Part shown: piece by piece, positions 34,166 to 45,935 of the stretch
Layout: every line of letters starts with the position of its first letter
Numbering within the stretch: position 1 is the stretch's first letter
Assembly (NCBI RefSeq): GCF_024582815.1
Contig: NZ_CP102099.1
Span: 2,046,001-2,110,000 of the forward strand
DNA length: 64,000 nucleotides
Source of the DNA: Acinetobacter colistiniresistens
Lineage (GTDB): Bacteria > Pseudomonadota > Gammaproteobacteria > Pseudomonadales > Moraxellaceae
Direction of reading: 5' to 3'
Notes under the pieces: generated by a model
What the model saw: the letters and a program-made list of their open reading frames with translations, nothing else
The model's database searches: none
What the model was told of the DNA's origin: nothing
Program-made: the position numbers and the translations under genes

Positions 34166-34381
34166 TTAGTAAAGGCGAGTAGTACGTACAGATTCGCGAG
34201 TCAATTTCTTTTGATAACGCTTAACTGCAGCAGCTTTTTTACGCTTACGTTCTTGAGTTGGTTTCTCATAGAATTCGCGCTTACGAACGTCAGCTAAAAC
34301 ACCCGCTTTTTCGCATGAACGTTTGAAACGACGGATAGCTACGTCTACTGGTTCGCCTTCTTTCAACTTAACTTGTGGCAT
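34166..34381 (-). CDS. rpsU: 30S ribosomal protein S21
   Basis: A 71-residue basic ribosomal protein ([29 protein letters not shown], then [15 protein letters not shown]), full length and typical of S21. It helps 30S subunits engage mRNA. AGAGGATTTTAC before the ATG supplies the ribosome-binding site. It is divergent from tsaD, as in many gamma-proteobacteria, and followed by yqeY. Confidence 0.98.
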
Positions 34382-34481
34382 GTAAAATCCTCTAAGATTA
34401 TGGATAAGATCTAACGCACGATTGCACTAGATCGCAAGTGAAGGTCAGTATTTTACTCATTTACAACTCAGATCACAAGTC

Positions 34482-34487
34482 TATAAT
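34482..34487 (+). promoter_or_regulatory. -10 element of the tsaD promoter
   Basis: A perfect TATAAT lies 40 bases before the tsaD ATG in the gap to the divergent rpsU gene. A -35 near TTACAA (34461-34466) has slightly short spacing. Confidence 0.5.
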
Positions 34488-34526
34488 AGCTTCGATATTA
34501 TTTTTGATCGTTGTAAAGGCAGTTTA

Positions 34527-35534
34527 ATGATTGTTTTGGGCTTAGAAACTTCGTGTGATGAAACTGGGTTAGCACTCTATGATAGCGAGCTCGGCTTACG
34601 TGGACAGGTTTTATATAGCCAGATTAAATTGCATGCGGAATATGGTGGCGTTGTCCCTGAGTTGGCATCACGCGATCATGTTCGAAAGATGATTCCTTTG
34701 ATTAATCAACTGCTTGAGCAAAGTGGTGTTAAAAAACAAGAGATTGATGCAGTTGCCTATACCCGTGGTCCTGGACTGATGGGTGCACTGATGACAGGTG
34801 CTTTATTTGGACGCACTTTGGCATTTGCATTTAATAAACCTGCGATTGGTGTGCATCATATGGAAGGTCATATGCTTGCTCCATTACTTTCCGAGACTCC
34901 ACCGGAATTTCCGTTTGTGGCTTTATTAGTCTCTGGTGGGCATACTCAATTAATGGCTGCCTATGGCATTGGTCAATATGAGTTATTGGGTGAGTCCATT
35001 GATGATGCGGCAGGTGAAGCCTTTGATAAAGTCGCAAAAATGATGAATTTACCTTATCCAGGTGGACCGAATATTGCGAAATTGGCGTTACAGGGCGATG
35101 CCAAAGCATTTGAATTCCCGAGACCAATCTTGCATCAAGGTTTGGATTTTTCTTTTAGTGGCCTTAAAACAGCGGTTTCTGTACAACTGAAAAAGTTAGG
35201 TGAAGAAAATCGCGATGCCGATGTGGCAGCTTCTTTTCAAGAGGCGGTTGTTGATACACTGGTTAAAAAATCAGTGAAGGCTTTAAAGCAAACAGGTTTA
35301 AAACGTTTGGTGATTGCAGGCGGCGTGAGTGCTAATCTAAGATTGCGCGAGCAATTAGAAACGTCACTGGCAAAGATCAAGGCTCAAGTTTATTATGCCG
35401 AGCCTGCATTGTGTACAGACAACGGCGCCATGATTGCCTTTGCTGGATATCAACGTTTAAAAGCTGGGCAACATGATGGTTTGGCGGTGACGACGACACC
35501 AAGATGGCCAATGACTGAGTTACAACCGACCTAA
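34527..35534 (+). CDS. tsaD: tRNA N6-adenosine threonylcarbamoyltransferase TsaD
   Basis: A 335-residue Kae1/TsaD ASKHA-fold enzyme. The metal-binding H111-x3-H115 is in HHMEGHML, and the nucleotide-binding parts are LETSCDETG at the start and VSGGHTQ in the middle. It transfers the threonylcarbamoyl group to A37 of ANN-decoding tRNAs with TsaB and TsaE. The next gene (P-loop kinase) begins 2 bases after its stop, so the essential tRNA-modification gene probably drives the following RNA-related cluster. Confidence 0.97.
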
Positions 35535-35535
35535 A

Positions 35536-35988
35536 ATGGAACTTATCATTTTTGTCGGTGGACAAGCTTCAGGTAAATCAACATTTTTTAAGCAATATTT
35601 CTCTGATACACATATTCGTCTCAATCTTGATATGTTGAAAACCAGACATCGTGAGAAAATATTGTTTAATGCCTGTTTAGAAGCAAAACAGAAAGTTGTT
35701 ATTGATAATACCAATCCGAGCAAACTAGATCGAAAGATATATGTTCAAGAAGCAAAAAATGCCCACTTTAAAGTGATTGCATACTATTTTGATAGTTGTT
35801 TGGATGATTTACTACTACGAAATGAACAGCGAGAAGGAAAAGCAAAAATTCCTCGAGTTGGGGTTATTTCAACTTTTAAAAAGTTAGAAATACCTGAGCT
35901 TAATGAGGGTTTTGATGAAATTTACAGCGTTTCAATTGATCAAGAAAATGACTTTAATATGAGCTTGCTGTATCAAAGAGAACAATAA
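35536..35988 (+). CDS. small P-loop kinase, polynucleotide-kinase-like
   Basis: A 150-residue P-loop NTPase with Walker A G8-x4-G13-K14-S15 (VGGQASGKST), the LNLDML segment and VIDNTNPSKLDR, which is like the T4 Pnk/PNKP kinase fold (DNTN...R). An arginine-rich lid follows (LLLRNEQREGK). It would transfer phosphate to a 5'-OH end of RNA or DNA, or to a small substrate. It lacks any phosphatase domain. It starts 2 bases after tsaD and overlaps the Thg1-like gene by one base, so it is translationally coupled. Substrate is inferred. Confidence 0.82.
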   Translation: MELIIFVGGQASGKSTFFKQYFSDTHIRLNLDMLKTRHREKILFNACLEAKQKVVIDNTNPSKLDRKIYVQEAKNAHFKVIAYYFDSCLDDLLLRNEQREGKAKIPRVGVISTFKKLEIPELNEGFDEIYSVSIDQENDFNMSLLYQREQ

Positions 35989-36770
35989 TGAGATTTGAAG
36001 ATTTAGATACAAGATTAAGAAAATATGAGACGGCTTACGATTTCTGTATCCCGCCTGAAAACTATATTGTGGTCAGGCTAGATGGTCGGGGGTTTACACG
36101 GCTAACCAAAGAGATCTGGCAATTTGAAGCGCCATTTGATGTACATTTTAGAGATTTAATGGTAGAAACCACAACCCATTTATTACAGTGTGGTTTTAAT
36201 ATCATTTATGGTTATACCCAGAGCGATGAAATTTCTCTTTTATTCCATTACCGCGATGAAAGTTTTAACCGTAAGGAACGTAAAATTCTTTCTATTTTAG
36301 CAGGTGAAGCCAGTGCAAAATTCTCTGTTCTGCATGGTCAAATTGCTACTTTTGATGCCCGAGTTTGTGTTTTACCCAATTCGCAATTAGTAGATGACTA
36401 TTTCCGTTGGAGACAAGAGGATGCTCATCGAAATGCATTAAATGCGCACTGCTATTGGATGTTAAGAAAATCGGGTCATGCCGTAGGTGAAGCAACGGAA
36501 CAAGTTAAAGGATTAAATCGTCAAGAAAAGCATGATTTACTCTTTTCACAACAGATTAATTTTAATGAACTCCCTGCATGGCAAAAGCGTGGTACCGGTG
36601 TTTATTGGAAAGACGTTGAAAAAACGGGGCTGAATCCGAAAACTGGTGAAATTACACAAACGACAAGAAGGCAGTTAGTTGCTGACTTTGAGTTGCCTTT
36701 AAATGAACTCTATAGTGAATTTATAGGTCAAAAATTTTTTGAAAATATTTTTATGAACAGTCGTTCATAA
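35988..36770 (+). CDS. Thg1-like 3'-5' RNA polymerase (tRNA-His guanylyltransferase family)
   Basis: A 260-residue Thg1-family protein. The palm-domain metal ligands are D32 in VVRLDGRGF and D80-E81 in YGYTQSDEIS. Further conserved parts are the segment ending AKFSVLHGQIATFDARV and the CYWMLRKSGH stretch. Thg1 enzymes add nucleotides in the 3'-5' direction; bacterial Thg1-like proteins can repair 5'-truncated tRNAs. Bacterial tRNA-His normally has G-1 encoded, so repair rather than G-1 addition is likely. It overlaps the kinase gene by one base. Confidence 0.9.
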   Translation: MRFEDLDTRLRKYETAYDFCIPPENYIVVRLDGRGFTRLTKEIWQFEAPFDVHFRDLMVETTTHLLQCGFNIIYGYTQSDEISLLFHYRDESFNRKERKILSILAGEASAKFSVLHGQIATFDARVCVLPNSQLVDDYFRWRQEDAHRNALNAHCYWMLRKSGHAVGEATEQVKGLNRQEKHDLLFSQQINFNELPAWQKRGTGVYWKDVEKTGLNPKTGEITQTTRRQLVADFELPLNELYSEFIGQKFFENIFMNSRS

Positions 36771-36782
36771 TGGAGTAGTAAG

Positions 36783-37286
36783 TTGAAAATTTCTTATATT
36801 TTTACATGTGGCCGATTAGAGTCTTTATTTAAGATTCTCTGCCTCACTCAAAAAGGTGAGGAGAAGGTTGCATCAAAAGAAAAAGTCATTGAACAATATA
36901 GAAAAGATATCGCTTTGGGGCGGCCATTTGAAGAAACTGAGCTTTATCAATTGATTGAGCAAAGTGAAGAAAAGATTGTGATTAACCGCTTGAGTAATAT
37001 TCTGCGCGAAAAACCTACTCAGCAGAAGGGTAGCTTTGATGCGGACGAATATAAGACCGGTGCATGGTCTGAGTTTAGTGATTATAAGCTGGCAGTTCGA
37101 TTCTCAAATGCGAAAACCGAGTTAAGTGAAAAGCACTTTGCGAAAACCGGTGAGTATATGACCAGTCGTGGTATCGCAAAATTGACAGGCTTTAATCCAA
37201 GCAATATTAAGAATATGCTGCATCATAAAAGAAGTGTGGTGAGAAAAATGCTCACAACCTTAGAGAAGTTAGCAAAAGAGTATTAA
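36783..37286 (+). CDS. hypothetical protein downstream of the Thg1-like gene, HTH-like C-terminus
   Basis: A 167-residue protein of unknown family. The central part is charged and helical (EKVIEQYRKDIALGRPFEETELYQLIEQSEEK). The C-terminus (YMTSRGIAKLTGFNPSNIKNMLHHKRSVVRKML) looks like a helix-turn-helix. TTG 36783 follows GGAG by 8 bases and is the best-supported start. It lies 12 bases after the Thg1-like gene, so it belongs to the same operon, perhaps as regulator or RNA-binding partner. Function is not recognised. Confidence 0.68.
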   Translation: MKISYIFTCGRLESLFKILCLTQKGEEKVASKEKVIEQYRKDIALGRPFEETELYQLIEQSEEKIVINRLSNILREKPTQQKGSFDADEYKTGAWSEFSDYKLAVRFSNAKTELSEKHFAKTGEYMTSRGIAKLTGFNPSNIKNMLHHKRSVVRKMLTTLEKLAKEY

Positions 37287-37303
37287 TCTTTAAACGCTCT
37301 GTC

Positions 37304-37331
37304 GGTGCAGAGAAATCGATTTTTCTGCACC
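37304..37331. repeat. 28-nt near-perfect palindrome after the kinase/Thg1 operon
   Basis: GGTGCAGA and TCTGCACC enclose AAATCGATTT, so all 14 positions pair if one G-U pair is allowed. It lacks a following T-run. It may end the transcript or serve as a protein-binding site. Confidence 0.6.
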
Positions 37332-37405
37332 TAGAATAATTAATAATGGTGGGTTAGCATCAAATTTTAGTTTGTATTCTCAATAATAAATAAAAAGGTA
37401 AAATA

Positions 37406-37729
37406 ATGTGGTCGGCTAAAGCAGCAACGATAATTGCATGGTTCAGTATCATTATTATTGCTGTGGCAGCAGTGTTTTCTATTTATGTTCTCAGTATCCC
37501 ATGTGCCTCTGATCGGATTTGTGAAATGCCACCTGTCCATCTATTTTTTTTCTTGGTATTAATCATCTCGGTGATCTGTAATTTTATCGGCATCATTTTG
37601 TCAATCATTGGATTAAAAAAACAAGAACCCATTAAAAAATCAGCCAAAGAGGCACTACGTTTTAATGGGAAAATGATTGTTTTTAGCTTTACAACTGCAA
37701 TGTTACTACTTTTGATTTTAATGGCTTAG
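37406..37729 (+). CDS. small membrane protein of unknown function
   Basis: A 107-residue protein with three hydrophobic segments (about 8-30, 46-70 and 86-106) and two cysteines in the first loop (PCASDRICEMP). AAAAGGTAAA precedes the ATG. No family is recognised. It is convergent with the EamA gene, only 8 bases away. Confidence 0.7.
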   Translation: MWSAKAATIIAWFSIIIIAVAAVFSIYVLSIPCASDRICEMPPVHLFFFLVLIISVICNFIGIILSIIGLKKQEPIKKSAKEALRFNGKMIVFSFTTAMLLLLILMA

Positions 37730-45336: not shown

Positions 45337-45421
45337 GGGGGCGTGGCGAAATTGGTAGACGCACTGGATTTAGGTTCCAGCGCCGCAAGGTGTAAGAGTT
45401 CGAGTCTCTTCGCCCCCACCA
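45337..45421 (+). tRNA. tRNA-Leu(UAG), copy 1
   Basis: An 85-nt tRNA with CCA encoded. Acceptor stem GGGGGCG/CGCCCCC, anticodon stem CTGGA/TCCAG, loop TTTAGGT with anticodon TAG, a long variable arm as in leucine tRNAs, and a normal T-arm. An identical copy follows 377 bases downstream. Confidence 0.97.
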
Positions 45422-45489
45422 TATTTAAAAAGCAAGTTTATCTTGCTTTTTTTATGGTTAAATCTAAGCGGATTTAATCATGTGGTTAT

Positions 45490-45563
45490 AGAGGATTGGT
45501 GTAATGGTAGCATGACGGTCTCCAAAACCGTTCGTCAAGGTTCGAGTCCTTGATCCTCTGCCA
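45490..45563 (+). tRNA. tRNA-Trp(CCA), copy 1
   Basis: A 74-nt tRNA with CCA encoded. Acceptor stem AGAGGAT/ATCCTCT, anticodon stem ACGGT/ACCGT, loop CTCCAAA with anticodon CCA, discriminator G as in tryptophan tRNAs. The D-stem (GTGT/GCAT) needs wobble pairs. It lies 68 bases after tRNA-Leu and is probably in the same transcript. Confidence 0.9.
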
Positions 45564-45569
45564 AATTTG

Positions 45570-45600
45570 AAAAGGGCCTTCGAGAGAAGGTCCTTTTTTT
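45570..45600 (+). terminator. terminator after tRNA-Trp copy 1
   Basis: AAAGGGCCTTC pairs with GAAGGTCCTTT (one G-U position) around GAGA and runs into T residues. Confidence 0.85.
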
Positions 45601-45713
45601 ATTTGTGTAATTTATCTGATCTGTATATTAAAAAGCATTAGCTTTCATAAACATAGTTTTTTATAAAAAGGGCTTGTCAGTCGCAGGGTTTATCTCTAAT
45701 ATACACACCCATC

Positions 45714-45798
45714 GGGGGCGTGGCGAAATTGGTAGACGCACTGGATTTAGGTTCCAGCGCCGCAAGGTGTAAGAGTTCGAGTCTCTTCGCCCCCACCA
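45714..45798 (+). tRNA. tRNA-Leu(UAG), copy 2
   Basis: Identical in sequence to copy 1 (45337-45421). Its upstream flank is related (ACACCCATCG), which supports a tandem duplication of the whole Leu-Trp unit. Confidence 0.97.
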
Positions 45799-45861
45799 TA
45801 TTTAAGAGAGTTTCCGACTTTCTTTATGATGAAGTCTGAAGGACTTTCATCATGCTGTTAT

Positions 45862-45935
45862 AGAGGATTGGTGTAATGGTAGCATGACGGTCTCCAAAAC
45901 CGTTCGTCAAGGTTCGAGTCCTTGATCCTCTGCCA
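45862..45935 (+). tRNA. tRNA-Trp(CCA), copy 2
   Basis: Identical to copy 1 (45490-45563), lying 63 bases after the second tRNA-Leu. The Leu-Trp spacer differs by 5 bases in length from the first unit. Confidence 0.9.

Follow-up and report, generated by a model that had tools for sequence, protein, structure and literature searches.

The 64,000-nucleotide stretch of Acinetobacter colistiniresistens DNA analysed here (contig NZ_CP102099.1, positions 2,046,001 to 2,110,000; hereafter the window) contains, directly behind a tsaD-like open reading frame (ORF), a gene for a polynucleotide-kinase-like protein (K) followed by a gene for a Thg1-like protein (T). Our analysis identified K and T as a conserved two-gene unit, for which a role in the repair of RNA 5' ends is proposed. 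A preliminary description of this locus, made from the DNA alone, had read K, T and the ORF that follows them as a three-gene unit tied to tsaD. The features at the locus are as follows.

34527-35534, + strand: tsaD-like ORF, named from the preliminary description and a reading of the protein; flanks the unit and is not a member of it.
35536-35988, + strand: K, 150 amino acids; stand-alone polynucleotide-kinase-like P-loop protein; first gene of the two-gene unit.
35988-36770, + strand: T, 260 amino acids; Thg1-like 3'-5' nucleotidyltransferase; second gene of the unit.
36783-37286, + strand: third ORF, 167 amino acids; TTG start behind GGAG; possible C-terminal helix-turn-helix (HTH); a neighbour and not a member of the unit.

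One base separates the tsaD stop from the start of K, and K and T share one base; the gene coordinates, the tight packing and the one-base overlap of the preliminary description were confirmed. The best relatives of the window's Thg1 are 98% identical to it and the genome is Acinetobacter-like. A scan of positions 34300-37500 revealed 10 promoter-like sites against 8.7 expected, none of them between tsaD and K, and six terminator-like sites where 2.8 were expected; five of the six fall within tsaD, K or T, and the last lies past the third ORF. Comparison with PADLOC models gave no match to a known anti-phage defence system: K matched only AriA (E-value 0.0054), and T and the third protein matched none.

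Both its sequence profile and its fold place K nearest to polynucleotide kinases. Its Pfam match is AAA_33 (7.6e-11); in sequence it is most closely related to PNKP kinase domains, and its P-loop fold is closest to the PNKP kinase. K14, D32 and R99 are invariant in 40 sequences, and the same positions are common to PNKP in the alignment; we take these residues to be the Walker A lysine, the substrate-side aspartic acid and the lid arginine. The NCBIfam equivalog cut-offs are not reached by K (51.3 bits vs 502.8 for PNK-3'Pase and 34 vs 750 for bacter_Pnkp), the two models spanning 520 and 851 positions and K 150 residues. T belongs to the Thg1/TLP (Thg1-like protein) superfamily, as both of its domains exceed the curated cut-offs (Thg1 PF04446, 4.1e-33, 114.5 bits, cut-off 29.2; Thg1C PF14413, 1.3e-17, 64.5 bits, cut-off 26.3). 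Among solved structures its best match is PDB chain 5axk (2.3e-29), followed by 4kgk. D32 and S79-D80-E81 of T, along with other positions, are invariant in 25 sequences; presumably these acidic residues serve in metal binding and polymerisation. At the level of predicted family, profile and fold uphold the naming of K as polynucleotide-kinase-like, and domains and conserved acidic residues that of T as a Thg1-like 3'-5' polymerase. Bacterial TLPs are reported to rebuild the 5' ends of truncated tRNA in vitro (PMC3701042).

A scan of the collection for Thg1 relatives gave 98 pattern matches, of which 93 were relatives; the best 80 of the 93 were kept. Including later searches and excluding the window, a total of 168 loci were examined, and 152 of them encode a Thg1 scoring at least 200 bits to that of the window. 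The 16 loci dropped comprise two without a match and 14 with a weaker one, among them L271-L273 (Macro or RtcB context) and L222 (which has K). In 126 of the 152 loci, K lies upstream of T on the same strand at a distance of no more than 700 bases. Measurement of 126 pairs, picked by a rule that differs slightly, showed K overlapping T in 110, with an overlap of exactly 11 bases in 87. The phyla represented in the Thg1 tree are Pseudomonadota, Bacteroidota, Cyanobacteriota, Bacillota, Spirochaetota, Chloroflexota, Planctomycetota and Actinomycetota. Since K lies upstream of T in loci from several phyla and usually overlaps it, K-T is a true conserved two-gene unit.

Genes of known RNA-repair systems were found as neighbours of this unit. 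A repair marker lies within 4 kb of T in 33 of the 152 loci, 29 on firm matches and four on weak or partial ones, namely the Pnkp-like ORFs of L021 and L322 (100 and 106 amino acids) and the RlaP-like ORFs of L220 and L264 (52 and 78 bits). Most neighbour names reflect similarity to a few reference proteins, and the references were checked by Pfam or NCBIfam. In the Nostocaceae, here the family of genome G181, 44 matches yielded 40 loci (G690 and G181 were already in the set; G1614 and G1696 were left out). K is present in 28 of these loci, Hen1 in 17, Hen1 with Pnkp in 14 and Hen1, K, T and Pnkp together in 12. The unbroken order Hen1-K-T-Pnkp occurs in eight Nostocaceae loci, in one of which Hen1 occupies two ORFs. 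As pnkp and hen1 are reported always to share one operon (PMC4411300), K-T sits within the pnkp/hen1 operon. Hen1/Pnkp also adjoin T in L154, L158, L257, L259 and L262, with both proteins above the NCBIfam cut-offs in L154 and L158, the two that were tested, and Hen1 occurs with RlaP on the Deinococcus plasmid L221. In L257, L262, L335 and L347, Hen1 and Pnkp are present and K is absent beside T; the kinase of Pnkp itself may stand in for K there. RtcR follows T directly in Thiothrix (L040), and RtcB is found near L040, L076 and L078; in Neisseria (L013, L014) RtcR lies 5.4 kb downstream of T, past the 4-kb limit and outside the 33. RlaP neighbours and the RNA ligase and HD-kinase of L159 complete the list of markers, and the RtcR, RtcB, RlaP, RNA_ligase and HD-kinase neighbours exceed the Pfam cut-offs in the loci tested. 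The location of K-T inside RNA-repair operons in part of the genomes supports the reading as RNA-end repair already put forward in the preliminary description.

Other arrangements around Thg1 were also recorded. In L013 (6734-12097) and L014, a Thg1 without K is followed by a protein of 1787-1792 amino acids, with DEAD and UvrD helicase domains in L013, and then by RtcR. L271 and L272 carry a Thg1 of a divergent subfamily, which scores 79 bits to that of the window; a Macro-domain gene precedes it and RtcB follows it, these neighbours being named by Pfam in L271 and by similarity in L272. A PTH2-type peptidyl-tRNA hydrolase (L070:5101-5718, + strand) stops about 16 bases ahead of a Thg1 without K. 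On a Thiodictyon plasmid (L220), Thg1 has an annotated BREX gene nearby; in one Cyclobacteriaceae genome (L025) it lies near genes that by eye read like type I restriction. In five of the 40 Nostocaceae loci (L334, L339-L342), K is preceded by a protein of about 300 amino acids and T is followed by a very large ORF; the three of these large ORFs that were read resemble, by eye, serine/threonine kinases at their starts.

Histidine-related genes form a second recurrent neighbourhood, being present within 4 kb of T in 12 of the 152 loci. The order hisG-hisD-K-T-hisC-hisB was found in Tenacibaculum (L019, L020 and L036; L033 is alike as far as its contig reaches). Hymenobacter-type loci (L018, L267, L268 and L269) have the order hisC-K-T-hisB, which is another position in the his operon. 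K-T follows hisS in three genomes of the Nostocaceae (L045, L345 and L346) and a gene for a histidyl-tRNA synthetase (HisRS) core protein in L166. The latter protein (L166:6245-6883, - strand; 213 amino acids) is the HisRS catalytic core alone. It has 903 protein matches, which measure 202-255 amino acids among the 120 matches listed; some of those listed are named 'ATP phosphoribosyltransferase regulatory subunit' or 'histidyl-tRNA synthetase', and they come from Massilia, Hahella, Undibacterium and others. A Thg1 tree of 114 proteins, which predates L345 and L346, served to set the ten histidine rows against the 15 repair rows. Four changes are required on it; a single change suffices in none of the 200 bootstrap trees, and two are forced by the strongly supported branches alone. 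This tree has an unsettled bootstrap and long branches, and its 89 unlabelled rows lie outside the count of changes. No significance was computed for the histidine linkage because the pattern was noticed after looking.

To read the base at position -1 of tRNA-His, 22 Thg1 genomes were searched with one pattern and 14 of them with a second, one tRNA-His gene per genome being considered. The gene was found in 15 of the 22 genomes and not in the other seven, and the -1 base was readable in 14. G-1 opposite C73 is encoded in all 14, including the window's genome, one Neisseria without K beside T and one Thiothrix with a split K. Thus, Thg1 is not needed for ordinary G-1 maturation of tRNA-His, which agrees with the earlier view that repair fits better than maturation. 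A rival possibility is that K-T is specialised for tRNA-His and restores a lost G-1, K rephosphorylating the end and T adding G opposite C73, with expression tied to histidine supply. The placement of K-T at two different positions of the his operon and behind hisS or the HisRS core, together with the repeated changes on the tree, speaks for such a specialisation. Against it stand the small number of loci, the unsettled tree, the encoded G-1, the 33 loci that adjoin general repair genes instead, and a report that the tested TLPs do not require the His anticodon (PMC6471195). We regard this specialisation for tRNA-His as unlikely; that tRNA-His is a frequent substrate of K-T is a lead suggested by the gene neighbourhoods.

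The proposal that we favour, with a probability of about 0.72, is that K and T form a module of two genes for the repair of RNA 5' ends, which is gained and lost as an accessory trait and in which K would phosphorylate and T would rebuild the damaged end. The order of the steps, the substrate and the trigger are what we infer from the families and their neighbours, and the substrate is most likely tRNA. A nuclease, for example a metal-independent one, would leave a 5'-OH RNA end, to which K would transfer a phosphate. T would then adenylylate the new 5'-phosphate using ATP and add the missing nucleotides in the 3'-5' direction, templated by the opposite strand of the acceptor stem. In the case of an internal break, the product would pass to a sealing system; some bacteria encode Pnkp/Hen1, RtcB or RNA ligase alongside K-T. 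Loss of the 5' terminus alone would call for no sealing.

Several observations weigh against this repair module. No repair marker lies within 4 kb of T in 119 of the 152 loci, and the window itself has no match to Hen1, Pnkp, RtcR or RtcB and is without any marker repair gene. The 12 histidine-linked loci could mean a role in tRNA-His and not general repair. The loci are partly dependent, some rows being identical, and the groups of L018, L019 and L045 were searched because those loci looked interesting. Thg1 occurs without an adjacent K in 26 of the 152 loci: L032 and L080 are cut by the contig start, L040 has K split over two frames, and the rest show no K beside T. A natural K-T fusion was considered for L040, where a single ORF of 397 amino acids matches both proteins; the kinase match runs over two frames and was read as a frameshift, the source being a metagenome-assembled genome in which the next ORF holds unknown residues. 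In the fold comparison with K, zeta toxin and PFKFB rank at least as high as T4 Pnk, which is a genuine polynucleotide kinase, and in Foldseek gluconate kinase ranks just above T4 Pnk. The fold alone thus leaves the substrate of K unfixed. That the substrate of K is a small metabolite or a protein, its pairing with T being only operonic, is nevertheless given very little credence; by sequence its closest relatives are the PNKP kinase domains.

A further alternative is that T mainly 5'-adenylylates RNA and passes the App-RNA to a ligase, 3'-5' polymerisation being secondary. Ligases (RtcB, Pnkp, RNA_ligase) do neighbour T in part of the loci. However, the acidic residues that we assume to serve polymerisation are invariant, and the 119 loci without a repair marker offer no such neighbour within 4 kb. 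Adenylylation is one possibility proposed in PMC2904730, whereas Pnkp, to judge from the title of a cited reference, has an adenylyltransferase activity of its own. Overall, we consider this alternative highly improbable and retain the repair module.

Comparison of 175 Acinetobacter genomes revealed how K-T relates to its neighbours in the window. Thg1 is present in 18 genomes and the third gene in 30. Ten of the 18 Thg1 carriers have K-T and the third gene beside tsaD; in the other eight, K-T lies elsewhere, with neither tsaD nor the third gene within 1.5 kb and no match to the third gene at all. The third gene occurs without Thg1 in 20 genomes, directly behind tsaD in 19 of them, the twentieth case being a 50% relative elsewhere. 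Since the third gene persists beside tsaD in genomes without K-T, it is independent of K-T. The window's tsaD and third gene are neighbours and not partners of K-T, and neither the three-gene unit nor the tie to tsaD is supported; conserved linkage holds for K and T and does not extend to the third gene.

Altogether tsaD and the third gene occur together in 29 Acinetobacter genomes, and K-T is missing between them in 19. A trace of the kinase start, above the best of 100 letter shuffles, was found in seven of these 19 spacers (L103, L105, L110 and L125-L128) and not in the other 12. The third-gene end exceeds the shuffles in seven of the 19 spacers, which may reflect only the leader of the third gene itself, and the middle part in none. 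The kinase remnants speak against K-T having been inserted at a vacant tsaD site, a reading that was therefore rejected for part of the clade at least. Because seven spacers keep such traces, K-T was lost there, and the tsaD-K-T-third gene arrangement is old at least in part of the clade.

The third protein gave no Pfam match over the cut-off. Its HTH-like label goes back to a weak HTH_26 match (0.17) and a reading of the C-terminus. At pLDDT 68 the AlphaFold model of the protein is of low quality, and a Foldseek comparison with the PDB gave no match at E <= 0.001. A total of 32 related proteins were found, and all four rows naming an organism are Acinetobacter. With no family over the cut-off, no clear PDB match and a poor model, the protein was rejected as a partner of K-T; the earlier statement that it has no known family stands, and its suggested role as regulator or RNA-binding partner within the unit does not. 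Two further observations concern the window. In four Lachnospiraceae loci (L052, L056, L061 and L068) Thg1 is followed by a protein of 145 amino acids similar to a protein of 154 amino acids near tsaD in the window; both are putatively GatB/YqeY-like by reading. The pair tRNA-Leu(tag)/tRNA-Trp(cca) is present as two tandem copies at window positions 45337-45935.

Thg1 is an accessory gene. Counting Thg1 of any kind (PF04446), it was found in 4 of 369 genomes of the window's class, 7 of 395 of the class of G176 and 12 of 242 of the class of G181. The order of G175 has it in 29 of 191 genomes, the family of G176 in 3 of 199 and the family of G181 in 44 of 182; G175, G176 and G181 carry L018 (Hymenobacter), L019 (Tenacibaculum) and L045 (Nostoc), respectively. 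Thg1 is present in 121 of 50,697 phage records, always at less than 60% identity to T (30-36% among the 40 matches listed), and the phage relatives differ from T in this respect. K had no match in phage records, and in a scan of viral contigs none of 33 pattern matches was a relative. Plasmid records contain Thg1 in 20 of 72,556 cases; among three plasmid loci inspected, K lies beside Thg1 in L221 (annotated as AAA ATPase) and L222 (unannotated) and not in L220. A phage or plasmid origin of K-T was rejected in view of these phage identities, the unmatched K and the few plasmid records.

The repair operons and histidine genes, as recurrent contexts, name concrete hosts, partners and substrates for K-T. 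If the proposed repair is true, bacteria would replace lost RNA nucleotides, beyond rejoining cut ends. A more general and tentative idea, possible but not favoured, is that bacterial RNA repair has a nucleotide-replacement step besides healing and sealing, in which K-T would refill nucleotides missing at a break or at the 5' terminus, either ahead of ligation (Hen1-K-T-Pnkp, Rtc) or without it, and that in several lineages this step would be wired to the his operon or hisS because the exposed G-1 of tRNA-His would be the commonest target.

The gene neighbourhood of bacterial Thg1 and PNK and its role in RNA repair were published in 2010 by Anantharaman, Iyer and Aravind (PMC2904730), and the system can hence no longer be called little described. 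MACRO and RNA ligase neighbours are reported there too, and the main text of that paper has no occurrence of 'histidine', 'his operon', 'RtcR', 'RtcB' or 'hisS'. A link of bacterial Thg1 to his operons or hisS, to RtcR or to the Hen1/Pnkp operon was not found in print, PMC8131947 and PMC5852040 included, most of the papers being judged from titles and the beginnings of abstracts. The histidine, RtcR and Hen1/Pnkp contexts go beyond the print found, and priority cannot be claimed. Burroughs and Aravind (2016) may cover part of these contexts; the Pfam name RlaP points to that body of work.

Comparison with known systems places K-T among them as follows. The genome of the jumbo phage XacN1 lists two tRNA-His guanylyltransferases, PNKP and a Hen1 homologue (PMC5852040); by numbering, its Thg1 ORFs 126 and 585 are not beside the PNKP and Hen1 ORFs 197 and 198, and a stand-alone kinase is unmentioned in the part of that source consulted. 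The Rtc system is represented by RtcR or RtcB near some Thg1 loci (L040, L013, L014, L076 and L078) and not in the window. Pnkp/Hen1 RNA repair is likewise without a match in the window, and K is a kinase domain alone, with 150 amino acids vs the 851-position Pnkp model; in part of the loci, Pnkp/Hen1 and K-T share one gene cluster. T is homologous over most of its length to the Thg1-like proteins with structures (BtTLP, 4kgk; 5axk), with the acidic residues conserved.
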